A stretch of 20,297 nt of DNA, taken from a virus. Under the pieces are notes generated by a model. That model did not search any database. It was not told where the DNA came from and saw only the letters and a list, made by a program, of their open reading frames with translations. Where the stretch lies: the IMG/VR virus record IMGVR_UViG_3300000956_000029, positions 1 to 20,297 of that record. The stretch is one strand, 5' to 3'. The position numbers and the translations under genes were made by a program. The first letter of the stretch is position 1. Each line of letters opens with the position of its first letter. Shown here in pieces: positions 66-14,596 of the stretch.

Positions 66-1097
66 TCAGACAATTGGATTTCCAAATAAATCAGTCTTTC
101 TAGGTCCACCACCGACTGGTTGTCCTCCGCTTCCACCCTGACCAAAGACATTCATCTGTCCCATTGCCTGCGGAATCTGGGCTATATTCTGTTGGAGTTG
201 TCCCATGTTCTGTGAGTTTGAAGCTGCCCATTGGACGAGAGCGTTATATCTATTAGAACTTTCACTTTTAATTCTGTTCGTTTCTGCAATAGCCTGATCA
301 AGTATTCCCTTCGAGAGATTGGCAAGATCTTGACCTTTCTTAAGACCACCCTCTGCTATTTGTTGTTTAAGTTGCTGTTGAGACTGCGCAAACCATTGAG
401 CAATACCTTGGATCTGTTGATCGTAGGTAGATTGTAATTTAGTCATCTCACCAGTTACGAAATTATTGAGGTCACCCATTTGTTTGTTGGCATCTTTATT
501 GATTGCGTATGAGTACATGTTAGCGGCGGAAGAGTCACCAGCACCCATTGAGCCTAGGTAGTTATTACCAGCCTGAAAAGCGTTTCTTGTTGTATTTGCT
601 ATGTCTCTCAGTGATTTAGCCTTTTGACCTTGTAGGCCTTCTTGTCCTTGTTTAAGTTGAGAGCCGGCTATACCTTCCTGAGCAGTTCTTTGTTGATCTA
701 TGAATCCTGATGTACCTTGTAAACCTGTTAAGTAGCTATCCCAAGCTCCCGATATCTCACTTCGTAAAGCTGCATATGGATCACTCTGTTGACCATAGGC
801 TGGGCTTCTTGGATCACCAGGGTCATTTGGGTTAGGGGCTGAAAGTTGTCCTCCGCCACCACCACCTGCTGAAGTCCCTAATACTTGCCCGGGTTGCTGA
901 TATGGAGTTGGGGTCCCTTGTCCTATTGGACCTGTAGCGCCTGGGACTTGAGCTCTTGAAGTAGGTCCGAATAAATTACTTCCTCCTTGTGCTGTTGTTG
1001 GTTTATTAAAAAGACCTCCGACAGCTTCTGTAACTCCGAAATCTGGGAGACCAAACCAAGAACCCGGATGTGAATTAAGTAAACCCATAATTGACAA
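66..1097 (-). CDS. Gly/Gln-rich coiled-coil phage protein, probable internal (ejection) virion protein
   Basis: A 343-residue protein with a low-complexity N-terminal third (Gly, Pro and Gln, including a six-Gly run near residue 80), a long Gln/Ala-rich helical middle (about 115-310) likely to form coiled coils, and a short C-terminal tail ending in KTDLFGNPIV. There are no membrane segments or signal peptide. Composition and position next to structural genes fit an internal or ejection-type virion protein of a short-tailed phage; this is inference, as no catalytic motif is visible. I chose the TTG start at 1097 because AAGGA lies five bases upstream; the in-frame ATG at 1088 is too far from that site. 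It is separated from the sugar operon by a terminator and about 530 bases of non-coding, structured DNA, so it probably heads its own transcript. Confidence 0.6.
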   Translation of the reverse strand: MSIMGLLNSHPGSWFGLPDFGVTEAVGGLFNKPTTAQGGSNLFGPTSRAQVPGATGPIGQGTPTPYQQPGQVLGTSAGGGGGGQLSAPNPNDPGDPRSPAYGQQSDPYAALRSEISGAWDSYLTGLQGTSGFIDQQRTAQEGIAGSQLKQGQEGLQGQKAKSLRDIANTTRNAFQAGNNYLGSMGAGDSSAANMYSYAINKDANKQMGDLNNFVTGEMTKLQSTYDQQIQGIAQWFAQSQQQLKQQIAEGGLKKGQDLANLSKGILDQAIAETNRIKSESSNRYNALVQWAASNSQNMGQLQQNIAQIPQAMGQMNVFGQGGSGGQPVGGGPRKTDLFGNPIV

Positions 1098-1705: not shown

Positions 1706-2800
1706 TTAGACCCTTTTTTTACCGTTGTCAATAGCCTCTTCAAATAGCGCCTTGTACTCTTCTAAATGGTCTGTAATCTCCCAGTTATTCTTTACATCTA
1801 AGTAAGCTTTCTCTCCCATCTTTCTTCGTTTTTCTTTGTCATCGATTAAGCTCTTTATCCCACGGTACCAATCCCCGCCTGTAGTTGCCAGCAGTCCATT
1901 AGTCCCGTCTATCACTTCTGAATATTGGCGAATATCAGACCATACACCGGGAATCTTGGCACTACTCGCCTCCAACCACTTTATCGAACTCTTACATTTG
2001 TTATACACATCCTCAACTAATGGTGTCAAAAGAATATCCGTATCATCCATATAAGAAGGAAACTTTTCATTGACCCACTTGTATAGATCCTGATCACCGT
2101 ACTTTAAATCAAATCTAGATCCCCACTTTTGTCTAAACTTTGGAATCCATGCTCCTATCGTCCTAAACTTAACATTAGGATACTCCCTCATTATGCGATC
2201 AACTCCTTTGAAAAACTCCTTCTCGCCTAAGTCAAGCCAGTGAGTTGAGGAACCGAAATGAGTAAGCATTATCTGTCCATCATCTTTAAACTTGGTTCTG
2301 TGTTTGTAGACCTTGAGATCAATGTAATTTGGAATCACTTTAATCTGATGACTCTTCTTATTAGTCTTACTCATTATCAAGTGTTTTAAATATTCATTAG
2401 TACAGGTAATGTAATCTACATCGTTACAGATTGAAGTGAAGTTACCAATAGCTGCTCCACCCTTCTTCCAAACTGAATGAGCGGGGTTATCGTCATGCAA
2501 ATCCCACAATGAATCATCCATATCAAGTATTAGCTTTACTCCATATTTACGAGCTAGCATTCCCATCACAGCATATCCCCAAGGATTATGGATATAGTTG
2601 AAATAGAACACATCGTATTTCTTGGCCAATGGTTCCCATTCCAATACATTGTTGTGAAGCTCCTCAACCTTAGGATCGTACACAAAAGTTTCAATCCCCT
2701 TGTATCCGTTCAGGTTCTTCATAGGAGAGATAATACGTGCATAATCTACACCTGACGTTCTAGTTCTAGTTGCGTGACTTGGTAAGCTAAATATTTTCAT
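1706..2800 (-). CDS. GT4-like glycosyltransferase
   Basis: A 364-residue cytosolic protein with the layout of a GT-B fold, family GT4 glycosyltransferase. Its N-terminal half has an open Rossmann-like pattern and DMDDSLWD (93-100), a segment common in phage and bacterial relatives. A linker follows with IPNYID (156-161), then a C-terminal nucleotide-sugar domain that includes LLTPLVEDVYNK and the SIKWLEAS segment, whose Glu277 is in the position of the family's E-x7-E donor-binding motif. The family transfers a sugar from an NDP-sugar donor; the acceptor cannot be read from sequence. It overlaps the upstream gene by four bases and is the last gene before the terminator at 1631-1670. No membrane segment is seen, so it acts in the cytosol or peripherally. 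Confidence 0.8.
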   Translation of the reverse strand: MKIFSLPSHATRTRTSGVDYARIISPMKNLNGYKGIETFVYDPKVEELHNNVLEWEPLAKKYDVFYFNYIHNPWGYAVMGMLARKYGVKLILDMDDSLWDLHDDNPAHSVWKKGGAAIGNFTSICNDVDYITCTNEYLKHLIMSKTNKKSHQIKVIPNYIDLKVYKHRTKFKDDGQIMLTHFGSSTHWLDLGEKEFFKGVDRIMREYPNVKFRTIGAWIPKFRQKWGSRFDLKYGDQDLYKWVNEKFPSYMDDTDILLTPLVEDVYNKCKSSIKWLEASSAKIPGVWSDIRQYSEVIDGTNGLLATTGGDWYRGIKSLIDDKEKRRKMGEKAYLDVKNNWEITDHLEEYKALFEEAIDNGKKRV

Positions 2801-3549
2801 TGAGTGTGCTCTATAAATTGGTCAAGCTTTCGGCTGAAAGTCTCGACTAACTGTTGGTAATGCCACCTGAACCAAGGAGCATACAACTTAACTTCTTTCT
2901 CATCGTGATAAGTAACTCCTGTCATTGTCGGTTCGTATTTATTCATTACTTCACGAGGTGTTGGTCCCCAATAGGCAACTCTACAACCGCAAAGTCTCGC
3001 CACCTCTAAAATTGCAGTTATCTCATCATAAACATAGAGTACTTGGCACTCGTTTAGTAAGTCTGCTAAAGCTTGTTGATCCATGGCAAAAGCCCTAGTT
3101 ATTTGTATTGAGTCTTTTGGATGTTTTTCCAGATTCTTACCTCTTGCGCAGTAGTAAGCAGTCTTTGTCCTTTTCTTCTTTTGGTCGGTAAATGTATGGA
3201 GATCGATAATAGGAAGAAATAGAACATGGTTATCATCTAATCCCCACTGATCGTAAACTTTAGAGAACACATAGATCTCATCATCCTTATCAAATTCTGT
3301 TGGGCCTGGTACTCCTAAATGAGACATCCGTCCTGGCGTCTGAAGTACATATCGTATAACTTTGTCAGCCTCCATTTCATTACCGTGATAGATCTCAGGG
3401 TAAATCCCAACTGCCGGAACATCTATCTTTGTATTCAAAAGAACGATCTGACCTTTGGCAAGTAACCAACCATATAGTCCGTACATTACTCTGATTCCAC
3501 CCGACACTGGGTCCATAGCAGGGGTTCTGATAAGGTAAGGTTTTCTCAT
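2797..3549 (-). CDS. GT-B-like glycosyltransferase-related protein
   Basis: A 250-residue protein. The N-terminus MRKPYLIRTP...SGGIRVMYGL carries the SGG loop (16-18) and following helix typical of GT-B glycosyltransferases that face an acceptor. The segment from about 171 to 190 (YVYDEITAILEVARLCGC) resembles the donor-binding E-x-x-x-x-x-E region, with Glu176 and Glu182. It is shorter than a complete GT4 enzyme (about 350-400 residues), so it may be a compact or degenerate member. Four-base overlaps at both ends place it inside the operon. It may act with the GT4 encoded next to it; that partnership is inference. Confidence 0.6.
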   Translation of the reverse strand: MRKPYLIRTPAMDPVSGGIRVMYGLYGWLLAKGQIVLLNTKIDVPAVGIYPEIYHGNEMEADKVIRYVLQTPGRMSHLGVPGPTEFDKDDEIYVFSKVYDQWGLDDNHVLFLPIIDLHTFTDQKKKRTKTAYYCARGKNLEKHPKDSIQITRAFAMDQQALADLLNECQVLYVYDEITAILEVARLCGCRVAYWGPTPREVMNKYEPTMTGVTYHDEKEVKLYAPWFRWHYQQLVETFSRKLDQFIEHTQ

Positions 3550-4274
3550 ATCGAAGTCATCTTGTACGATTGACCGTAAGACAATTTATGTAACCACTTC
3601 TTAACCTCATCAGTTAAAGGCATATTGTCAAAATCAAGCTTTGGAAATACTCCTCCTCTTGCGAAGTGATAGGCTATAACTTGTTCTTTCCTGCACATCA
3701 ATTTATCATTTTCAATGTAGAACTCCGGTTCACGACCAAGCGACTTGCAACCGTAGTAATCCTTTTCTTTGTCGACTATCTTAAGTATAAGATCATTACT
3801 ATATATCACTAAATTCATCACGTCGTTCTCACGCCTTTTATATTTACGTGCGTTCCTATTAGCTTCTCTCCAGTCAGCTAAGAATACATGGGAGCGGGTA
3901 GCCCACATTCCGCCTTGAATATACATCTCCTCGGTTATGTTCTCGAAGCTTGCATTCTCATAATCGTTGAAGTTCCACGGCCCTGCTACTCCGTAATCCA
4001 CCTTGTCAAATACCTCAGTCATTCGTCCTGTTACAACGTGATCCGCATCCATGTTTACGATAAGATCGTATTTATCCTCAAGTAGTTCCGCAAAGAATGG
4101 CTTGGCATTATACCAGTCTATTCCCTTCTCCTTGAATAGTTTGTCTGCTGTATCCTGTCGAAAGACCACAAGATCAATATCAGGATGAAACTTCCTAAAA
4201 GAGTTCACAAAGATGTGAGTCCCTTCGGGGTAATAGTGTTTGTCGTCAACTGCTGTAAAGCAAACTTTTCTCAT
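3546..4274 (-). CDS. GT-A-type glycosyltransferase (GT8-like)
   Basis: A 242-residue protein beginning with a beta-strand (MRKVCFTAVD), a helix with FVNSFRKF, and then YDLIVNMDADHVV, in which Asp76-Ala-Asp78 is the metal- and nucleotide-binding DxD motif. This order is that of GT8-type glycosyltransferases (glycogenin/galactosyltransferase-like), which use UDP-sugars. A later segment (YIQGGMWATRSHVF) resembles the acceptor loop of this class, and HFARGG near 208 may supply the C-terminal metal-binding His. No membrane segments. It overlaps both neighbours by four bases, so it is translationally coupled in the operon. The sugar and acceptor are unknown. Confidence 0.72.
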   Translation of the reverse strand: MRKVCFTAVDDKHYYPEGTHIFVNSFRKFHPDIDLVVFRQDTADKLFKEKGIDWYNAKPFFAELLEDKYDLIVNMDADHVVTGRMTEVFDKVDYGVAGPWNFNDYENASFENITEEMYIQGGMWATRSHVFLADWREANRNARKYKRRENDVMNLVIYSNDLILKIVDKEKDYYGCKSLGREPEFYIENDKLMCRKEQVIAYHFARGGVFPKLDFDNMPLTDEVKKWLHKLSYGQSYKMTSI

Positions 4275-4963
4275 CTTGTGAATAAAACTACAATTGCTGA
4301 CGATTCGTACCTTTTAGCTTGATAGCCTAGTGAAATCAGGTACTTAACAAGCTCTGTCCAGTTGGGATAATGAAACTCGACTATTATTGACTGGATCTTA
4401 GAAGCGACTTTTTTAAATCCCTCAGATCTAAGGATTAGGTCGTCTGCACCTTCTACGTCAAACTTGCAGAAATCAACCTTTTCTATCTTGTTCTCCTTAA
4501 AGAAAGTTTCAAAGTCCATAGTCTTAACCTTTGACTCAACTGTGTACTTTCCACTTCTTATCTCATACTCTCCTTTGTCCTGTTTAACAACAATTGAGTT
4601 CATTGTTCTATTACCTGTGTTTTGAGAGAGAATTGTCTCTCCATTCCTGTCTGAAAGAGCAAGGTTAAACAGCTCAACGTTATCCCAGTTATTGAACTCC
4701 TTATTTTTCTTTAAGGCTTCAAAGTGTTCAGGTGAGGGTTCAATGGCATAGATCTTTTTGGCGTGAGGCCTAAAATGGGCTACAGTTACGCCTATATTAC
4801 TACCAACATCCAGAATAACCATGTCTTTCTGTTGGTTTAGAACATCAATATATAAGCCCTCAAAGTAGATTTCCCGGTAGATATAGGGAATGTATAACGA
4901 ATCAAATGGAATTTCATTACCCTTCTGATCCTCTGTTGGATAGAATAAAGCGCCTAGTTTCAT
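4271..4963 (-). CDS. FkbM-type SAM-dependent methyltransferase
   Basis: A 230-residue protein with the class I methyltransferase core: motif I DVGSNIG (52-58), the acidic end of strand two IEPSPE (74-79), an NVELFNLALSD segment, and DFCKFDVEGAD (about 165-175), the hallmark of FkbM-family enzymes, followed by IIVEFHYP. The family methylates hydroxyls, often on sugars in polysaccharide and glycolipid clusters. A sugar O-methyltransferase is therefore the likely role among these glycosyltransferases. It starts two bases after the stop of the transketolase C gene and overlaps the GT8-like gene by four bases. No Shine-Dalgarno sequence is evident, so coupling to upstream translation is likely. 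Confidence 0.85.
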   Translation of the reverse strand: MKLGALFYPTEDQKGNEIPFDSLYIPYIYREIYFEGLYIDVLNQQKDMVILDVGSNIGVTVAHFRPHAKKIYAIEPSPEHFEALKKNKEFNNWDNVELFNLALSDRNGETILSQNTGNRTMNSIVVKQDKGEYEIRSGKYTVESKVKTMDFETFFKENKIEKVDFCKFDVEGADDLILRSEGFKKVASKIQSIIVEFHYPNWTELVKYLISLGYQAKRYESSAIVVLFTR

Positions 4964-4965
4964 AA

Positions 4966-5439
4966 TTAACGTTTAAGAGATAGGAATGTTGGCCTTGGTA
5001 TGTCAATCATTTCCCGAATTAATAAAGGTATCTCTTCTTTTTTCTCAGGCCACATTTGTTTAATGTTCTTAAGCAAATTGAAATGGTTTTTAACGTCCTC
5101 TGCGTTATGTGAGTATCCATCATGTTCATAATCAGTGTCCCGTCCTGATCCGACTAGCTTGATGTTTAGGTTCTCATGATTGATGTAGGTCCTTATCGTC
5201 TCCCATCCTCTATAGAAGAATGGGGTGATGGTGTAGCAAATAGGTATTTTATTTGAGTGAGCTAATCCAACAGCTATATCCAACATGGATTGTTCAGATG
5301 CTCCACAATTTAGAAACCTGTCAGGAAAGGCGTGCATTATCTTGTCAAACCCCCCATATCCCAGATCACCAGTTAAAGCGATAATATCGTGGTTTCTCGC
5401 CATTGCTGAATACAGCTCTGCAAAATATAGTTCTCTCAT
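4966..5439 (-). CDS. Transketolase-like pyrimidine-domain subunit
   Basis: A 157-residue protein equal to the thiamine-diphosphate pyrimidine-binding domain of transketolase or DXS. It has TGDLGYGGF (23-31), then NCGASEQSMLDIAVGLA (44-60), in which Glu49 is in the position of the catalytic Glu that activates the cofactor, then a Phe/Tyr-rich TPFFYRGWETIR segment, and KLVGSGRDTDYEHDGYSHNAEDV, matching the DG-x-SHxxxED region of the family. It stops after this domain, so the roughly 120-residue C-terminal domain of standard transketolase is missing. It overlaps the partner N-domain gene by four bases, implying a two-subunit enzyme. In surface-polysaccharide clusters such split pairs are associated with sugar precursor synthesis; the exact reaction is not deducible. 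Confidence 0.8.
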   Translation of the reverse strand: MRELYFAELYSAMARNHDIIALTGDLGYGGFDKIMHAFPDRFLNCGASEQSMLDIAVGLAHSNKIPICYTITPFFYRGWETIRTYINHENLNIKLVGSGRDTDYEHDGYSHNAEDVKNHFNLLKNIKQMWPEKKEEIPLLIREMIDIPRPTFLSLKR

Positions 5440-6062
5440 TTAGTTAACTCCTTGTATTCTCTTTCACCTAAAACTTGATAATGTCCATCAACTCCCTGAA
5501 GATAATCAGGCCACTTAAACATATTGGTCTTTAAAACAAGAGAGGGATAAAAATAATTCATTCTAAGTTCAAGTAAGTCAACATCTACCTTACCAAGTGC
5601 TGATGTTCCATTGGCGTTCACATATACTCTTAGATTCTCAAGTCGTAGCTCTCCTGCAATTCGTAAAGCCTCCCAGTTAGATCCTTCAGCCATAGCGCCG
5701 TCTGAGGTTAGGACGTGTACTGCTCTCGTTCTATCAGATAGAGCCATCCCAACCGCAATCCCGATTCCATGACCTAGAGATCCAGCTGATGCGTAGATCT
5801 TATCCCCCAGATCCCGATTCGGATGCACTCCATGTTTATCAAACAACTTCTCAGCATCCTTAAAATAGATCTTCTCAAGTACACAGTAGAGGGCAAGAGC
5901 GGCGTGTCCGCTATCTAATATGAAAGGTTCGTTTTCTTTTTTAACTTTGTAGATGTGGTCGATTATTCTGTAGGCAGTCAAACAGGAAGAAAGGTGGGAT
6001 AATTTCTTGCGATAGGATATGTCTATTATTCTCCGTTCGATCTTATCAAGAGGTTTATCCAT
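5436..6062 (-). CDS. Transketolase-like TPP (diphosphate-binding) subunit
   Basis: A 208-residue protein matching the N-terminal TPP domain of transketolase. GSLGHG (94-99) matches the family's G-S-L-G-x-G loop. SDGAMAEGSNWEAL (120-133) is the metal-diphosphate motif, which is normally GDGE...EG; Asp121, Glu126 and Gly127 are kept, but the first Gly is Ser and the following Glu is Ala. Asn151 (NANG) is at the second metal-ligand position, and VDGH (191-194) is also conserved. I chose ATG at 6062. A longer reading from a GTG at 6116 would translate the terminator hairpin (6070-6108) as its first 18 residues, which is not credible. The start codon directly follows the terminator T-tract. It works with the pyrimidine-domain gene downstream. 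Confidence 0.8.
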   Translation of the reverse strand: MDKPLDKIERRIIDISYRKKLSHLSSCLTAYRIIDHIYKVKKENEPFILDSGHAALALYCVLEKIYFKDAEKLFDKHGVHPNRDLGDKIYASAGSLGHGIGIAVGMALSDRTRAVHVLTSDGAMAEGSNWEALRIAGELRLENLRVYVNANGTSALGKVDVDLLELRMNYFYPSLVLKTNMFKWPDYLQGVDGHYQVLGEREYKELTK

Positions 6063-6108
6063 AAAAAAAACCGACCTTAACTCTATCACTCCAAGAGTTA
6101 AAATCGGT
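6063..6108 (-). terminator. Strong intrinsic terminator overlapping the next gene's translation start region
   Basis: On the minus strand, bases 6108-6094 pair with 6084-6070 over 15 positions (two G-U pairs) with a nine-base loop, followed by a run of eight T residues (6070-6063) and then the ATG of the transketolase TPP subunit. The plus strand would have two mismatches where the minus-strand RNA has G-U pairs, so the element is oriented for leftward transcription. It lies 46 bases after the stop of the Ser/Pro-repeat gene. The 3' arm contains AAGGT 11 bases before the ATG, the only ribosome-binding-like sequence for that gene. Confidence 0.9.
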
Positions 6109-6153
6109 TGACGCACTCATTTTGTGCGCAAAACCACGAACTGATTAAGTATA

Positions 6154-8685
6154 TCAGATTATTGTGTAAAATCCATGGGATAATTTGAGGGCTAGTTTTC
6201 CATCAACTAGAATCAGGTTTTTTTCAAAAGGTGGAGCAGAAGGAGATGGAGAGATAGAATCTGATACTGATGAACTGGGGCTGACTGAGGCACTTGGAGA
6301 TATGCTGGCGGAGGGACTGGCGCTTGCAGAAGGCGACTGACTGGCACTAGGAGACTGTGACAGGCTAACGGATCCAGAAGGAGAAGTTGAGGCGCTTGGT
6401 GATTCACTAAGGGATATAGAGGCACTGGGACTTGTACTAGAACTTGGTGATTCAGAAAGAGACACACTAGCACTGGGGCTTTGGGAGGCGGAAGGGGACT
6501 CTGATAAGCTTGCGCTTCCTGATGGACTGACTGAGGCTGACGGACTCTGCGATAAACTCACGGATCCTGAAGGACTAATAGAGGCGGAAGGTGAGACACT
6601 AGAGCTTGGACTTTGGCTCAAGCTAACACTACTAGATGGGGATTGAGAAGCACTGGGTGACTCTGACAAGGAAGTGCTACTACTCGGACTAACTGAGGCG
6701 CTAGGAGATTGGGATAAACTCACAGATGCAGACGGAGAGACGCTTGCAGATGGCGATTGACTCAGACTTATACTCGAAGAAGGTGAGAGACTTGCACTTG
6801 GTGATTGAGAAAGAGATACGCTAGAGCTTGGTGAAACAGAACTACTAGGACTGGTGGATGCTGATGGACTTTGACTTAATGAAATACTAGCACTGGGTGA
6901 GATCGATGCAGACGGTGATTGGCTGAGGCTTATTGAAGAGGAGGGAGACACACTCGCACTAGGCGATATAGAGGCGGAAGGGGATTGACTCAGACTGATA
7001 GATGCGCTTGGAGATTCAGATGCCGAAGGAGACTGTGATAAACTAATTGAAGCTGATGGACTATCACTCGCACTAGGGCTCTGGGATAATGATACCGAAG
7101 CTGATGGACTGACAGAGGCACTGGGACTCTGACTTAAACTAATGGAGGCAGAGGGTGACTGGGATGCGCTAGGACTCTGAGAGAGGCTAACACTAGAAGA
7201 GGGGCTTATGCTAGCTGAAGGTGAGACGGAAGCTGATGGCGATTGGGAAAGAGATATAGATGAACTAGGTGAAACAGATGCGCTTGGGCTTTGACTCAAG
7301 GATACAGAAGAAGAAGGAGAAATACTTGCACTTGGGGATTGTGAAAGACTAACTGAAGACGAGGGAGATATAGAGGCACTAGGAGAAATGGAAGCGCTGG
7401 GAGATTGCGAGAGTGAAACTGAAGAGGATGGGCTTACCGAGGCCGATGGAGATTGTGATAAACTAACGCTGGAACTTGGGGACTGAGAGGCGGAAGGTGA
7501 CCGTGATAAAGAAACGCTAGAACTAGGACTAACTGAGGCGGATGGAGAACCAACAGGAGCGGAAACATACTCGATATATACTCCTAACCACAAAACCCAA
7601 ATATCGGGATTACCATCAGTTGTTGCAGCTCCTATCTGCATGTTTTCAATAGAATTAGTTCCTGTTGGAGTCCACGCTACTCCTGTAGTTGGATCGGTAT
7701 ATGAAATTAAACTAGTTCCAAAAGCTGTTGTACCACTAGGATTTGTTCTAACAGTTGTATCACCAGCATCTACACTTGCAGATGATGTAGTTGTTCCTCC
7801 TGCTGCTGATTTAATTCTTAAAGTATAATTTGAAGTTCCTGCAGCCTCCTCTCTTACTCTAGCAAGTACAGAAGTCAAAGTGATAGTATCACTTGATCCG
7901 ATTCCTAATGTGGCGGTATCCGTTACATTATAATCACCAATTGAAGTTGTAGTATCAAGTTCAATCATAGTTGATCCTGACGTTGCTGTATTAGATGGAG
8001 GTATTTCGTTAATATAAGAAAAGATTCCTGTAGTTGCTGCGTTATCCCCTGCTGCACTTGGAAGTCCTAGTACTATTTTTCCTTCTCCAGGCCATGAAGT
8101 TTGGCTTGATCCTTGATTGTCATTTACTGCTACATCATCCACATATATGTCTCCAGTTTCAGAATCTATCGCACCAAAATATACATTATCAGTTTGACCT
8201 CCAGTAGAGTTTGCTGATGCAAATTGTGTCCCATCTATTCTTCCTACAATTGTGTTGTTCGCATGAGAATCATCATAGGAAATTTCAATCCTATACCAAG
8301 TATCTAGATCTAAAACTTGAGAAGGAGAGCCAACTAGTCCGGTGGCATTATCTAATAAGCTTAATGTTCTGTCTGCTTGAAGGACAACCCCAGCTATTCC
8401 AGTTGTACTATTTACAAAAGAAATTAAAGTAGATCCATCTCCAATATAAGCACTTGCAATTCTTAAGTAAATTCTAGCAAAGATAATATTGGAGGAAAGC
8501 GATCTCACATTTTTAGTAATATAGCCATGTCCAGCACTAGCATTAAACCTTAATGAAGCAGTCCCACTTCTTTTTATTGACGTGCTTATAGATACTGTAG
8601 AACTACCCCCTGTGAATGGCCCTGTAAACTCAACGCCAGAGGTGGTACTTTGCGTTTCAAACCCCAGTGTGTAAAGTCTTGCCAT
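6154..8685 (-). CDS. Giant Ser/Pro-repeat virion protein with N-terminal lectin-like domain
   Basis: An 843-residue protein in three parts. Residues 1 to about 190 look like a LamG/concanavalin-type beta-jelly-roll (GFETQ start, [30 protein letters not shown]). Residues about 200-377 are Thr/Ser-rich beta sequence ending in [11 protein letters not shown]. Residues about 378-816 are an almost pure repeat of SPSAS(x) and [10 protein letters not shown] units. A 27-residue tail follows ([15 protein letters not shown]), resembling C-terminal tags of other phage surface proteins. There is no signal peptide, membrane anchor or LPxTG motif, so it is more likely a virion stalk, fibre or decoration than a host adhesin. 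Its ATG shares a base with the upstream TAA stop (TAATG), so translation is coupled. A terminator follows. Glycosyltransferase genes flank it on both sides, making the Ser residues candidate O-glycosylation sites (inference). Confidence 0.8.
6235..7550 (-). repeat. Coding tandem repeat, Ser-Pro-Ser-Ala-Ser units with scrambled codons
   Basis: About 1.3 kb encodes about 437 residues built from a six- to eight-residue Ser/Pro/Ala unit, often arranged as a 16-residue supermotif ending in SVSLSQ. The protein repeat is nearly perfect, but the DNA is not. Ser is written with both TCN and AGY codons at the same repeat position, and Ala and Pro codons also vary. This keeps long exact DNA repeats rare. 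Confidence 0.85.
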
Positions 8686-9437
8686 TATTTAATATATTTA
8701 TGATTAACTTCTAATATCTTCTGTGTTAATTCTGGCTTAATCCCAACCGACTCAGCCCATGCTGCCCAGGCGTAGATGTCTTTAGGGATACACTTAGAAT
8801 TGAATCCACGTTTCTCTGGGTAGATGAAAGTCCACCACAGATTAAATCTCGGATCATCACCGTAAACTGCATCTCTTATTGTGTAATAATCAATATTTGC
8901 CGCCTCACAAACATCATATAATTCCTGACATTGAGCAACTTTAAAAGCGATAGCCCTGTTTTCGGATAGCTTTATCACTTCAGCCTCATAACTGCTAACT
9001 TGTCTTATCTTCACATTAGCGTTATATACTTTCATATATAGCTCTATCAGTTTTCTTGTATTTCTTTTTTCTCCACCAAGGATTAAGAAAGGTGCATTTT
9101 TCGTATCAATTAGTGGATGGTTAGGGGTTTCGCCTAAGTACTCCGGCTGCATTACAATTTCTTTTCCATATTTACCAGTCCACCTATTACAGTCTCCCGG
9201 ATTGACAGTTGACCTTACAACAAATAACTTAACCTGACAAAGACTGATATAGTGTTCGACTATTGAGGTGTCTAATCTGTAGTTCTCAACACAGGGTGTG
9301 GGTACACAGATGAAAGCTATATCACATTTATTAACCTCTTCAATCTTACCTTCCTTATGGGTATATACATAAGCATCGGGAAACAATTGCTTCATTGACT
9401 TTCCAACCCAACCATTACCGATTATTGCTACTTTCAT
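8685..9437 (-). CDS. Short nucleotide-sugar dehydrogenase (UDP-glucose/UDP-ManNAc dehydrogenase family)
   Basis: A 250-residue NAD-dependent enzyme of the UGDH family. The Rossmann loop GNGWVG (7-12), VPTPC (45-49), VRSTVNPGD (74-82), the central-domain helix with Glu151, Glu153, Lys156 and Asn160 ([12 protein letters not shown]), and the active-site KCIPKD with Cys216, Lys219 and Asp220 are all present. Full-length enzymes have about 390-440 residues and end with a UDP-binding domain. That domain is absent here, so nucleotide binding must be altered or the substrate may differ. The expected reaction is oxidation of a sugar C6 alcohol to a uronate. It overlaps the upstream GT gene by four bases (ATGA) and its stop overlaps the Ser/Pro-repeat start. 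Confidence 0.82.
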
Positions 9438-10981
9438 AATATGTTTTTAAGATCATCCCATCCGGGAATCTGATCAACTGTTGACTCCTTCCAATTAGTA
9501 CACGTCTCCTTATTCCTAAATTCCTCAATATTCCATCTGCTTTTACTTAGATTCTTTTCGTGTCGAATATCTATGTTTGGAAACTCCGAGTTCCAAACCT
9601 CTGATGTGAAACTATCAAACCTTCCTTTTGTTCCCGGTTCATAACCCATCCCTCTATTCCATCCCTCAACTTCAACTCTCCTAACTCTCTCTTTGTAGTG
9701 TTTGATTGCAGTTTCCCGATAGACACATATTTGACTTACCTGATTACAGTCATAATGAAGAGCGTGGCCGTCTGATCTTACTTTCCAAACATTCTGGTTG
9801 TAGTAGAAGACATCTTTCCTTGGAGGATTGAAGGTGAAGTGGGAGGGATGGTATAATACATCATGCTCGCAAAAAAAGACAATATCCGAAGTCGATCCCT
9901 CAAGAGCCGCAAGAATCTGCTTAAACATAGTAAGGATCCCTCTGTCCCTTCTTATGTGTATATTAGTTCCAAAAGTCATTGGCTTAAGGGAAGCACTAAC
10001 AATGGGTATGCCGATATTTTTAAGTTGTTTCTGCACGGCATGCGCAATCTTAAGCCTTAATTGATTATCTGTGTAGAATATAATCCCCTTCTTAGTTTCC
10101 CAATCGGGGACTGGTGAAAACTTCTCAATCAACCACGATAGAGGATGAATAGCCTTGTCCCATTTATTGTTAAGGAATAGATCTCTTGAATATTGTCTGG
10201 CTTTATCAACAGCTCTTCCTGAATTTGGGAATGGAAAGCTGAAATCGCCTCCTTGAGTCCTGAACATGTGAGCATACCATGTTTTATGATTGACCTTAAC
10301 CTGTCCACCAGATAGCCATGTCTTACAGGCAACTTCAACTCCCTGCTGTCCCCAGCTACCGAATTTTTCATCACAAATACCTAGTTCCCAGTATTTCTTG
10401 CGTGTCAGCATGAAGCATGATCCTTGAAGTGACATAGTATCTGTGATGTCCCCGCTTACCCTATTCTTCAACTCATTAAAGTATTGAAAATGTAAAGTTC
10501 TATCAAACCTGTAAGCTGTGCTCTGTGGAGACTTCTTAGGATTCCAGACAATATCTCTTAAGGTTGGTTGTTGACAGGTTGTACATGGGCCGGATGGACC
10601 TTGATAACGTCTATGTCCATCTGGACAAACCCAATCGAAAGCGTGTAGATTTCTCATCACCGGAACCATTGTCCAATCGTCCTGCATTTCCTTCATCATC
10701 TTGACATCAAAGCCCTGATCAAAAGCACAGTGAGCGTCAACCTTCATTACATACTTAGCGTTAGACAATCGACAGGCTAGGTTAGTTGCGGCTCTTTGCC
10801 CGATTGCTTCAGGTAGATAGACAACAGTAACTCTTTCGTGTTGTTTAATTTCAGGATCAGCCCATTGTCCATCTAAGACTACAATCACCTCAGTATTACC
10901 CTCTATGTGTTCAAGAATATCCTCAACAGTGCGGGATAAAAACATTTCATTACGAGCTGGTATTAATATACTTAAGTCCAT
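9434..10981 (-). CDS. Two-domain glycosyltransferase (GT2 domain plus second GT-A-like domain)
   Basis: A 515-residue cytosolic protein. Residues 1 to about 295 are a family 2 glycosyltransferase: SILIPARNE at the start, VLDG (35-38), and VDAH (81-84), which replaces the usual DxD metal motif, followed by GSCFMLTRKKYW and KTWYAH (233-238). An insertion at 119-136 has Cys119, His123, Cys133 and Cys136 spaced like a zinc knuckle. Residues about 298-515 form a second Rossmann-like domain with FFCEHDVLYHPSHF (369-382), in which Glu-His-Asp resembles a DxD site, and an N-x-WKVR segment. The N-terminal part is paralogous to the next gene upstream (shared WYAH and PVPxW motifs). It overlaps both neighbours. 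Two successive transfers by one polypeptide is a reasonable inference. Confidence 0.8.
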   Translation of the reverse strand: MDLSILIPARNEMFLSRTVEDILEHIEGNTEVIVVLDGQWADPEIKQHERVTVVYLPEAIGQRAATNLACRLSNAKYVMKVDAHCAFDQGFDVKMMKEMQDDWTMVPVMRNLHAFDWVCPDGHRRYQGPSGPCTTCQQPTLRDIVWNPKKSPQSTAYRFDRTLHFQYFNELKNRVSGDITDTMSLQGSCFMLTRKKYWELGICDEKFGSWGQQGVEVACKTWLSGGQVKVNHKTWYAHMFRTQGGDFSFPFPNSGRAVDKARQYSRDLFLNNKWDKAIHPLSWLIEKFSPVPDWETKKGIIFYTDNQLRLKIAHAVQKQLKNIGIPIVSASLKPMTFGTNIHIRRDRGILTMFKQILAALEGSTSDIVFFCEHDVLYHPSHFTFNPPRKDVFYYNQNVWKVRSDGHALHYDCNQVSQICVYRETAIKHYKERVRRVEVEGWNRGMGYEPGTKGRFDSFTSEVWNSEFPNIDIRHEKNLSKSRWNIEEFRNKETCTNWKESTVDQIPGWDDLKNIL

Positions 10982-11826
10982 CCGGGTACAGGTTTAAACT
11001 TATCAATGAGAAATTGGAAAGGTTTTGTTTGTTTGTGCCACACCTTCTCAATCATCCACCTATTCACATACTCATTAGTTCGTTTAAGTTCCCTTACATC
11101 AAGAAAGTATCCTCTTCTATGACTCTTACCGTCTGCAGTTTTACCTTTGTGCCAGTGTGCATACCAAGTCTTCTTGTTAATCTTCACTTCTCCACCTGAC
11201 AACCAGCACTTCAGCCCAACCTCTTGAAACTCTTGGGGAAAAGTGCCATAATTAGCCTCATCTAGGAGTTCAAGGTGATAGAAGTAGTCTCGTTTCATAA
11301 AATATGCGGAACCCTGTGAAGACATCAAATCATCGATCAAAACGTTCTTCAAAGAAGCGTCTCGATTCTTTTCTTCCCATATCCTCCCATGAAGGCCCGG
11401 ACCTCCATAATCATTCTTATCGCTTGGATAAGAGAGATACATATAGTCAATGTCAACCTTACCTACATCCTGTACCTTCCAGTTCACCGGGTCTAGCCTC
11501 TTACGTCTTGGTACGACAACCCAATTGTCCTGTATGTCAGCGACTAGCTTAACATCATACCCTTCATCCCACATTGTATGAGCATCACACTTTAAGATAT
11601 ATTCACCCTTTGCGATTGCGACTCCCGAATTGATTGAAGCTCTCATTCCACGTGCCTTACCACGATGAATGAGTTTAAGTTTTGGATTTTCTTTTAGTGG
11701 AGGTGAAGGCCAGTAGCCATCTAGTGAGACTATTATTTCTATTTCTCCTTTTGCCTTTGACGCTAGATCGTCTATTGTCTGCTGAAGAAATGGTTCGTTT
11801 CTGCTTGGTATTATTATTGAGATCAT
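10972..11826 (-). CDS. Family 2 glycosyltransferase
   Basis: A 284-residue GT-A-fold enzyme. It starts with the classic SIIIPSRNE strand, then IIVSLDGYW, GMRASINSGVAIAKGEYILKC and Asp81-Ala-His83, the likely metal- and nucleotide-binding site. Next come a QGSAYFMKRDYFY acceptor-side segment (about 174-186) and GLKCWLSGGEVKINKKTWYAH near 205-225. It is clearly a paralogue of the first domain of the downstream 515-residue protein, suggesting duplication within the cassette. No membrane helices, unlike polyprenyl-phosphate-linked GT2 enzymes. It starts with a four-base overlap with the preceding head-region gene, tying the sugar cassette to the structural operon. Confidence 0.82.
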   Translation of the reverse strand: MISIIIPSRNEPFLQQTIDDLASKAKGEIEIIVSLDGYWPSPPLKENPKLKLIHRGKARGMRASINSGVAIAKGEYILKCDAHTMWDEGYDVKLVADIQDNWVVVPRRKRLDPVNWKVQDVGKVDIDYMYLSYPSDKNDYGGPGLHGRIWEEKNRDASLKNVLIDDLMSSQGSAYFMKRDYFYHLELLDEANYGTFPQEFQEVGLKCWLSGGEVKINKKTWYAHWHKGKTADGKSHRRGYFLDVRELKRTNEYVNRWMIEKVWHKQTKPFQFLIDKFKPVPGWT

Positions 11827-12597: not shown

Positions 12598-12832
12598 GCC
12601 CTCCTGTCATTTGGCGCTCTAAATATCTCAACTTCTCCTGAACGTACCTAACATGCCGCCTATCCCCTCGTCTTATCGCCTCAATCAACTCTTCCCTCGA
12701 CTCCCTGATCTCAGGGGTTTCCCGCATGATCTTTGTGATGATACGCTCGACCTCGTCACGCTTATACGCATTAGGAGCGTACTTGTATAAATCCATCAAT
12801 TCCTCTAAATCGTACTTTCTACTATCATCCAT
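12575..12832 (-). CDS. Small charged helical head-region protein
   Basis: An 85-residue protein, almost wholly predicted helix, very rich in Arg and Glu (EELIEAIRRGDRRHVRYVQ), with no recognisable family. It follows the major capsid gene after a GC-rich hairpin and overlaps the next gene by 23 bases. It could be a connector or head-decoration factor; function unknown. No strong Shine-Dalgarno sequence precedes the ATG. Confidence 0.6.
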   Translation of the reverse strand: MDDSRKYDLEELMDLYKYAPNAYKRDEVERIITKIMRETPEIRESREELIEAIRRGDRRHVRYVQEKLRYLERQMTGGRETARYG

Positions 12833-12842
12833 ATTAAGTGTT

Positions 12843-12867
12843 GCCCCGCCGAACTAGGCGACGGGGC
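12843..12867 (-). promoter_or_regulatory. GC-rich hairpin after the capsid gene (not a terminator)
   Basis: GCCCCG (12843-12848) pairs with CGGGGC (12862-12867) with further inner G-C pairs. It lies directly downstream of the capsid stop codon. No T-tract follows on either strand, so it is unlikely to terminate. It could protect the 3' end of capsid mRNA or mark a processing point, which would help raise capsid protein levels. Confidence 0.5.
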
Positions 12868-12874
12868 TAAACTA

Positions 12875-13828
12875 CTACACGACTGCGAACCGAGCTGCAA
12901 TAATCCAGTTTGGATTAAGAATCTTGGTTGCGTACGAACCTGCCCATGAAACGAATGACACCCTTCCTGCTGGAGACGATGAGTCTTTAGCATTTGGGAT
13001 GATTGTCAATTGAGGCTTATCACCTTCAAGGTCATAAACACCAAAAGCATCCTTTCCGTGGACGTAGGTTGTATGACGTGTTACACCAGACGAAGCTGTC
13101 GATGTCGCTTCGATTCCACACAAATCGTCTAGATTCAATAACCAGCGAACTTGATACAGTTCTCCGATTTCTCCTCTATATAGATTAGTTCCATCCTTAT
13201 ACGTATGAGCGTTTACCCACGTTGAATCTCCCAGCAAATTGTACTTACTGTAAGAATCTACTTTACCCATGAATAAGCCGTCTGCATAAGGTCTAGCTTT
13301 GTTAGCTTCAAGAACTTGCACCATTCCTCTTATGTCACACGCATCAAGCGTGTCACCAGCTGTGAATGTTGCGATAGTATGGTTGTTACCATAGTATGCA
13401 GTTCCATTGTCCAATTCTAGCCTGACTAATCTGTTTAACGTTTCTCCCATATTCTGTCCAACTAAGCTGATCTTTTCTTTCATTCCAGAATCAATTGACG
13501 TTAAAGTCAACAGTTTTCCGTGTGTGGTTGTTAAACCATACTCTGAAAGAGTGACCGATACTGTTGAAGCATTAATCGCACATGTTGCCGGATTAGAAGC
13601 CTCTCCCATAGGAGAAGTTATAATCGTTAACGGATTGTAGCGAGTAAAGTTAACAGTTCTTCCTTCATTTTTAGGAGTTGTTCTCATCTGAGCGCCTTCT
13701 TTCAACACTAGTTCATATTCTGAACGAGCCAAGAAAACCTTCTCATAGTAAGTGGCAACTTCCTGAGGAAGCGAGCTTGTTGTATTGACGTTTGTAACGT
13801 TGTCTACATTTGATCCTACTACTGCCAT
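12875..13828 (-). CDS. Major capsid protein, N4-gp56-like
   Basis: A 317-residue protein that I recognise as the N4-gp56 family of HK97-fold major capsid proteins. Its start is Asn/Val/Thr-rich (VVGSNVDNVTNVNTTSSLP), followed by YYEKVFLARSEYELVLKEGA, a GRTVNFTRYNPL strand (57-68), a long Thr/Leu-rich segment, and the C-terminal SWAGSYATKILNPNWIIAARF that typifies the family. It would assemble the icosahedral head with the scaffold encoded just upstream. A perfect AAGGAGGTGA lies six bases before the ATG, as expected for the most abundant virion protein. A GC-rich hairpin follows the stop. Confidence 0.85.
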   Translation of the reverse strand: MAVVGSNVDNVTNVNTTSSLPQEVATYYEKVFLARSEYELVLKEGAQMRTTPKNEGRTVNFTRYNPLTIITSPMGEASNPATCAINASTVSVTLSEYGLTTTHGKLLTLTSIDSGMKEKISLVGQNMGETLNRLVRLELDNGTAYYGNNHTIATFTAGDTLDACDIRGMVQVLEANKARPYADGLFMGKVDSYSKYNLLGDSTWVNAHTYKDGTNLYRGEIGELYQVRWLLNLDDLCGIEATSTASSGVTRHTTYVHGKDAFGVYDLEGDKPQLTIIPNAKDSSSPAGRVSFVSWAGSYATKILNPNWIIAARFAVV

Positions 13829-13834
13829 ATATAT

Positions 13835-13844
13835 TCACCTCCTT
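13835..13844 (-). promoter_or_regulatory. Consensus ribosome binding site of the capsid gene
   Basis: The minus strand reads AAGGAGGTGA six bases before the ATG at 13828, a full match to the 16S rRNA anti-Shine-Dalgarno complement. Confidence 0.9.
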
Positions 13845-13855
13845 TTTTCTAAGCG

Positions 13856-14596
13856 TTAAGCCTGAACTATGCCTAGTTCTGCTTCAAGCTCCTCAATCGA
13901 TTTCTCTTTCGAGGATTTTTCTGCCTTGCGGATAGAGGTAGGTCTTAAGGCGGTCTCAGATACTTGCTTAGTAATCTTTTCTGTGACTTCACCAACCTCT
14001 TTGTTTACTGACTTTTTGTAAAGTTTCATCAGCTTATCCACAAACTTTTTTGGTGATGCGGAATACGGATTTGCACGAACGTGCGCTTCCGTTGCCTCAG
14101 TAAACGTGTCAGAAAGCTCTTTGTTAAAGGTCTCACTCTCCGGATCTAGTTCTGGATATTTCCGAACAACGTCATTGGATTCGTTTTGAATCCTATTTAT
14201 AGCGTTATTCTGTTTTATCCTAAGCTCAACCAAAGCTGATGCAGTTTTATGTACATCGCCTTGATATTGCTCTTCGCTAATCTCCTGACCTGGTTTGACT
14301 TGTGGTTTGTATTCAGGAATCTCTCCTGGTTGGCCCGATTGGGCTGTAATTTCCTCTAGTCTTTCAGCCAAGGACTTAGCTTTCTCTTCTGCCGCTTTTT
14401 TAGCTGCATTGAGTTCCCTAATCCTTTGATTTGCACCTTTACTGCTCTCTGCTGTTTCAGTCTTTGAATCCTCTGTCTCAGTTGCAACTTCAACCTTGGG
14501 TTCTTTGACTTCCTCAGTTGTTTCTTTTAAAGTTGACGACTCTTCGGGAAGTTTAACTTCTTCCGGCTTTACGTCAGGATTTACATCCTTATCCAT
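13856..14596 (-). CDS. Capsid scaffolding protein
   Basis: A 246-residue, very acidic then basic, helix-rich protein. Residues 1-50 are Glu/Lys/Thr-rich and probably disordered. A coiled-coil segment follows (ANQRIRELNAAKKAAEEKA, about 54-80), and the C-terminus is Lys/Glu-rich. Composition, size and position immediately upstream of the capsid gene are typical of phage scaffolds. I set the start at ATG 14596 because AAGGAGGTGA sits five bases upstream; a longer reading from 14617 would translate through that site. It acts transiently in procapsid assembly. Confidence 0.75.
   Translation of the reverse strand: MDKDVNPDVKPEEVKLPEESSTLKETTEEVKEPKVEVATETEDSKTETAESSKGANQRIRELNAAKKAAEEKAKSLAERLEEITAQSGQPGEIPEYKPQVKPGQEISEEQYQGDVHKTASALVELRIKQNNAINRIQNESNDVVRKYPELDPESETFNKELSDTFTEATEAHVRANPYSASPKKFVDKLMKLYKKSVNKEVGEVTEKITKQVSETALRPTSIRKAEKSSKEKSIEELEAELGIVQA

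Follow-up and report, generated by a model that had tools for sequence, protein, structure and literature searches.

Genes for probable O-glycosylation of a putative serine-rich particle appendage in an uncultured phage

Gene organisation of the phage fragment and its Ser-rich protein

The window considered here, meaning the whole stretch of DNA that was analysed, is IMG/VR record IMGVR_UViG_3300000956_000029, a linear fragment of 20,297 bp from an uncultured phage with almost all of its genes on the minus strand. In the order of that strand these encode an integrase, the small and large terminase subunits (TerS and TerL), a portal-like protein, a scaffold-like protein (for which a Pfam Hex_IIIa match scored below cut-off and was disregarded), the major head protein and three small proteins, followed by a cluster of ten sugar and Ser-rich genes and then a 343-aa late protein. 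The glycosyltransferase genes share the contig with TerL, TerS, major head protein and portal-like genes, as befits a phage genome. The cluster is co-directional, and the preliminary description was right about its gene order and about the nine enzyme-like genes that flank an 843-aa Ser-rich protein. The main features, divided for reasons given below into modules A and B, are as follows.

12875..13828, minus strand: major head protein, upstream head-module context (phrog_1357, E 3e-46)
10972..11826, minus strand: GT2_284 (284 aa), GT-A glycosyltransferase of the GT2 family, distantly GT27/chondroitin-synthase-like; module A (Pfam, profile)
9434..10981, minus strand: GT2_515 (515 aa), two-domain glycosyltransferase, domain 1 (residues 1-296) GT27 pp-GalNAc-T-like and domain 2 GT-A-like; module A (profile, AF2, Foldseek)
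8685..9437, minus strand: short UDP-glucose/GDP-mannose dehydrogenase (UGDH), 250 aa (PDB, E 3e-10)
6154..8685, minus strand: Ser-rich appendage protein (putative), 843 aa (phrog_14065, E 6e-46)
5436..6116, minus strand: transketolase N-terminal half; module B (Pfam, E 2.7e-10; split-chain transketolase 6yak, E 2e-11)
4966..5439, minus strand: transketolase pyrimidine-binding half; module B (Pfam, E 6.6e-19)
4271..4963, minus strand: FkbM-family methyltransferase; module B (Pfam, E 8.7e-19; TIGR01444 above cut-off)
3546..4274, minus strand: 242-aa possible GT8-like glycosyltransferase; module B (invariant DxD; no PDB match)
2797..3549, minus strand: 250-aa conserved protein, no function assigned; module B (16 relatives aligned)
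1706..2800, minus strand: GT4-type glycosyltransferase, 364 aa; module B (phrog_7162, E 2e-31; Pfam Glyco_trans_1_4)
66..1097, minus strand: 343-aa late protein, follows module B in relatives (homologs)

Overlaps of 4-10 nt (11823-11826, 10972-10981 and 9434-9437) and of 1 nt (8685) link the first half of the cluster to the head genes, as had been proposed. No membrane helix was found in any protein of the cluster (highest 19-residue Kyte-Doolittle mean 1.29) and no signal peptide was seen in the repeat protein, in agreement with the earlier view that the enzymes lack membrane helices and the repeat protein an export signal. Pfam, PHROG or NCBIfam support the family assignments of both GT2s, UGDH, both transketolase halves, FkbM and the 364-aa GT4. 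The Ser-rich gene is separated from the transketolase N-terminal half by a gap of 37 nt (6117-6153), and no epimerase-like gene is present at this point; in most relatives a NAD-dependent epimerase-like gene of ~255 aa directly precedes the transketolase N-terminal half (L002:14256-15029).

The Ser-rich protein consists of an N-terminal phrog_14065 domain of ~370 aa, an (SxS)n repeat at residues 380-817 and a short C-terminal tail. Its C-terminal half had been described as a Ser-rich repeat, and the regularity is far beyond chance: the repeat of 438 residues contains 235 Ser, and of the 234 intervals between them 202 are exactly 2 and the remainder 1. All six Ser codons are used (AGT 62, TCT 58, TCA 44, AGC 30, TCC 28, TCG 13) and Tandem Repeats Finder reported no DNA tandem array in the region, so that the pattern appears to be held by selection at the protein level, and repeat slippage at the DNA level is excluded as its source.

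The N-terminal domain is homologous to gp13 of Streptomyces phage Hiyaa, which is not Ser-rich, is encoded between the capsid and head-tail adaptor genes and has been annotated by others as a 'minor tail protein'. Homologs of this domain without a Ser stalk occur in L176, L177 and Hiyaa, and no GT2 relatives were found in these three loci. In near relatives that lack the Ser-rich protein, other appendage-like proteins occupy the same site; from this replacement and its position the Ser-rich gene would seem to be one of several forms taken by a variable appendage of the particle and, when the name given to Hiyaa gp13 is also considered, its product a putative virion stalk.

Ser-rich segments are not confined to one protein family, and were found in several unrelated late-region proteins. 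In several phages one Ser-rich family immediately follows the major head protein, with a second family close behind, and a search for GT2-negative orthologs of this capsid-adjacent protein found none. Appendage-like Ser-rich proteins adjoining GT2_515 have lectin-like or glycine-rich starts. In a conserved late protein of ~530 aa, which we suspect to be a beta-propeller, a Ser-rich insert (residues ~57-120) forms a loop (L057:9548-11143, for example, with orthologs in L050, L053, L056, L070, L076, L044, L048, L052 and L192); orthologs in L061, L182 and L041 are without the insert, and full-length orthologs were found in viral contigs only.

Module A enzymes and their association with Ser-rich proteins

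Profile comparison places both GT2 enzymes as distant relatives of the GT27 polypeptide GalNAc-transferases (pp-GalNAc-Ts), the mucin-type enzymes of animals. GT2_284 matches Pfam Glycos_transf_2 (E 2.6e-15) and its profile, A2, matches pp-GalNAc-Ts over 3-253 (E 2e-10); chondroitin synthase is also among its best profile matches, and for this reason the catalytic motifs are no proof of a polypeptide acceptor. The profile of GT2_515 matches GalNAc-T1 in the PDB (E 7e-12), with DAH and H238-x-x-R aligned, and D82, H84, W210, G211 and H238 are invariant among 31 relatives. Its AlphaFold (AF2) model has a pLDDT of 90, and in a Foldseek comparison with the PDB the top 32 matches were all GalNAc-Ts (best E 3e-15). 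The GT27 enzymes are thus the closest solved structures to GT2_515, and their DxH, His and WG motifs align with it, including the metal motif of the GT-A fold (D82, H84) and the downstream His (H238). The two differ at the C-terminus, where GT27 enzymes have a ricin-type lectin domain and GT2_515 has a second GT-A-like domain with weak matches. One of these is to the PBCV-1 glycosyltransferase (PDB 2p72), concerned with virus-encoded glycosylation of a capsid protein, but from another virus group and with only 9% identity in the fold alignment. Sequence and predicted structure suggest that GT2_515 is GT27-like, and so resembles the enzymes that initiate O-glycans on Ser/Thr, although membership of GT27 is not claimed.

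Relatives of GT2_284 were identified in 39 viral loci, and a tblastn search of 50,697 phage records returned no GT2 relatives. The third member of the module, UGDH, has NAD and central domains and the catalytic CIPKD, and is without the C-terminal UDP-binding domain. Its 49 relatives have a median length of 255 aa and carry C[IVLM]PKD in 43 cases. Length is conserved throughout this family of ~250 aa lacking the UDP-binding domain, and CxPKD is absent from 6 members.

Co-occurrence of the GT2 genes with Ser-rich proteins was analysed in 24 near-full-length contigs, 14 of them found through terminase (TerL) homology and 10 through module-B homology. The L002 contig, in the terminase group, was added as the closest relative of the studied phage, and the other 23 were chosen blind to GT2 and Ser content. 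A Ser-rich protein was present in all 7 GT2-positive contigs and absent from 16 of the 17 GT2-negative ones (Fisher p=2e-5, a value that overstates independence, since the contigs are related by descent and only 2 contrasts, those starred on the terminase tree, are independent). On that tree the trait changes at least 2 times on well-supported branches and 5 times on the best tree, and phylogenetic independence cannot be claimed. Without the L002 contig the figures become 6/6 against 1/17. The single exception, G008, has a Ser-rich frame of 156 aa that, as read from the sequence letters, probably reflects an acidic region read in antisense. UGDH was present in 5/7 GT2-positive and 0/17 GT2-negative contigs. 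The database search for co-occurrence that the preliminary description had proposed supports it for this part of the cluster: across diverse phages the GT2 pair, mostly with UGDH, tracks Ser-rich proteins. Among loci of at least 12 kb selected by GT2_515, moreover, a Ser-rich ORF was present in 31/31, and the gene adjoining GT2_515 was Ser-rich in 29/90 clusters against a background of 6.6% (p 3e-13).

Glycosylation of the particle or of the host surface

It is suggested here that the phage encodes a protein O-glycosylation module, module A (two GT2s, usually with UGDH), dedicated to the Ser-rich appendage of its own particle, and we regard this as likely. Glycosylation of a virion stalk is the best reading of three observations together: the tracking of Ser-rich proteins by the GT2s, the replacement of the Ser-rich gene by appendage-like genes at the same site, and the position of Ser-rich segments behind the capsid protein and in a late-protein loop. 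The lack of an export signal or membrane helix also counts in its favour, as do the stalk-free homologs of the N-terminal domain in loci without GT2 relatives. More generally, since the GT27-like enzymes occur almost only in phages with Ser-rich stalks, GT2-carrying phages probably cover some components of their own particles with sugars. In terms of enzyme activity, acceptor and sugar, domain 1 of GT2_515 would act in the host cytosol and attach an initial sugar to Ser residues of the (SxS)n stalk, the other GT-A domain of this enzyme would extend that sugar together with GT2_284, and an oxidised sugar may come from UGDH; the stalk so coated, presumably stiff and hydrophilic, would then be assembled into the virion.

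Modification of the host surface had been named as the main alternative, and it is stronger than could be known at that time. Among 43 genome contigs with GT2_515 relatives, nearly all are from Patescibacteria. Some of them are phage-like, such as L147 with its adaptor, tail and tape-measure genes, but the idea that all such matches are prophages was dismissed, because L166, L169 and L151 hold tat and other cellular genes. Behind GT2_515 and a Ser-rich gene, these three Patescibacteria chromosomes carry two tatA-like genes and then tatC (confirmed in L166 by a Pfam match, E 1e-41), and phage genes were not recognised in them; in a fourth, L134, a tatC relative lies downstream and no tatA was seen. 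Judged from their genes, these loci suggest a cellular Ser-rich glycoprotein with linked Tat export. Loci with GT2_515, an SPS-type Ser-rich gene and tat genes are at L166:16229-17638, L169:18485-19788, L151:19062-20489 and L134:12097-12828. A further GT2_515 relative, on a Myxococcales MAG contig (L173), is accompanied by Ser/Thr/Pro repeat proteins of SSTPS type at 3919-4596 and 12676-14229, a hint of the same glycosyltransferase/Ser-rich logic outside Patescibacteria.

The host of the studied phage is probably an ultra-small member of the Patescibacteria. Among 380 Patescibacteria genomes, relatives of the capsid gene were found in 2, as matches of only 31-34%, and GT2_515 in 6, which makes such a host probable rather than shown; the distance of the capsid matches led us to reject prophages of the same lineage in these genomes.

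Given the related gene set beside tat in Patescibacteria chromosomes, it is plausible that Ser-rich glycoproteins have a role at the surface of these hosts. The Ser-rich protein and glycosyltransferases of the phage could accordingly make a surface glycoprotein of the infected Patescibacteria cell, serving attachment or superinfection exclusion. It is consistent with this that phage and cellular GT2 domains are interspersed in the tree, that some N-terminal domains are common to both, and that lectin-domain and nucleotide-sugar genes of Patescibacteriota phages were interpreted as host-surface genes in a 2025 study (PMC12911398). Against it, the scanned viral loci yielded no tatC-like gene, the phage Ser-rich proteins are encoded among the late structural genes and give way to other appendage-like proteins in relatives, and the Ser-rich loops belong to a late protein for which only viral contigs yielded full-length orthologs. 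We consider a surface glycoprotein unlikely.

Somewhat less likely still is that the GT2s modify a polysaccharide, another virion protein or DNA, the Ser-rich proteins being unmodified spacers that co-occur with them in Patescibacteria phages. The closeness of the GT2_284 profile to chondroitin synthase would fit, as would L145, a Patescibacteria chromosome in which a GT2_515-like gene has no Ser-rich ORF within 10 kb and which also counts against virion glycosylation; the near-perfect match in presence and absence, the adjacency of the genes and the GT27-like active site of GT2_515 do not.

Glycosylation of virion proteins by phage enzymes has precedents. In mycobacteriophages Che8, Corndog and Myrna it concerns the C-termini of capsid and tail tube proteins (Freeman 2023, as presented in PMC11256854, PMC12363180 and PMC12619734). 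Phage-encoded glycosyltransferases are common to both cases; there they put glycans on virion proteins, and here their acceptor would be the Ser-rich stalk. Che8 gp108-110 are of GT2/GT25 type and from phages of other hosts, and the portions of these sources that treat mycobacteriophage systems describe no Ser-rich stalk. Homology of the present enzymes to Che8 gp109 and gp110 was considered and rejected, no relation being detectable.

GspB and Fap1 are Ser-rich repeat glycoproteins of Gram-positive bacteria with dedicated cytosolic glycosyltransferases, as described in PMC7948813 and PMC5207161. The likeness lies in a long Ser-rich repeat, here a candidate acceptor, adjoining its glycosyltransferases, and in glycosylation that is intracellular, as proposed here. 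The present genes differ in belonging to a phage genome, and no accessory Sec system (SecA2/SecY2), export signal or adhesin was seen within the 20,297-bp fragment. GspB and Fap1 systems use GtfA/GtfB, and the enzymes here are GT27-like instead.

We found no report of GT27-like glycosyltransferases combined with a Ser-rich stalk in phages in the literature searched, which is no proof of absence. Particle glycosylation in these many uncultivated contigs would be a second and apparently unrelated phage solution beside that of a few mycobacteriophages. It has a recognisable candidate acceptor, the alternating-Ser stalk, together with a recognisable type of initiating enzyme, and its phages have the mostly uncultured Patescibacteria as probable hosts. 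Genes that are usually classed as auxiliary metabolic genes directed at the host thereby become candidates, open to testing, for decorating the particle; the set of three (GT2_515, GT2_284 and UGDH) is assayable in E. coli. A more speculative extension, possible but in our opinion doubtful, is a mucin-like system common to phage and host. Patescibacteria would glycosylate Ser-rich surface proteins by GT27-like enzymes and export the products through a linked Tat system, and phages, with the same enzymes, would put matching glycans on stalks, capsid-linked proteins and late-protein loops and so mimic the glycans of the host surface.

Module B as a separate glycan module

Module B comprises the transketolase pair and the FkbM, 242-aa, 250-aa and GT4 genes. 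These genes, flanked by the head genes on one side and the 343-aa late gene on the other, keep their order in 9 full-length relatives that have neither such GT2s nor a Ser-rich protein, and 9 of the 12 contigs with module B lack a Ser-rich protein (association p=0.67). Homologs of the 343-aa late protein lie 3' of the GT4 gene in L231-L233, L235-L242, L249, L210 and the L002 contig. Module B is therefore a separate glycan module and a constant feature of the late region throughout this lineage of phages. The original description of one nine-gene cassette centred on the Ser-rich protein does not hold as a general rule, and the finding that had been named as contradicting it, similar cassettes in phages without a Ser-rich protein, is what these 9 relatives display for the module B half. 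Nor is the proposed pathway to an oxidised, O-methylated chain on the stalk established, as module B is present with or without a Ser-rich protein. What survives of the proposed virion O-glycosylation is the part that concerns the GT2 pair and its GT27-like member.

That all nine enzymes build one chain on the stalk, for which one might cite the contiguous and co-directional modules of the studied phage, L002, L232 and L233/L067, is contradicted as a general rule by the relatives just described and is the least probable of the alternatives, even if it could still be true of this one phage. The split into Ser-linked and Ser-independent sugar genes indicates which enzymes to express first.

Of the three further glycosyltransferase-like genes noted previously, the 364-aa GT4 is upheld. 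The 242-aa protein has a non-significant GT8 match (Pfam E 0.03), with a DxD invariant in 17 relatives, and the 250-aa protein had no match in Pfam, NCBIfam or the PDB, even as a profile of 16 aligned relatives. The 250-aa family (2797-3549) has many invariant residues.
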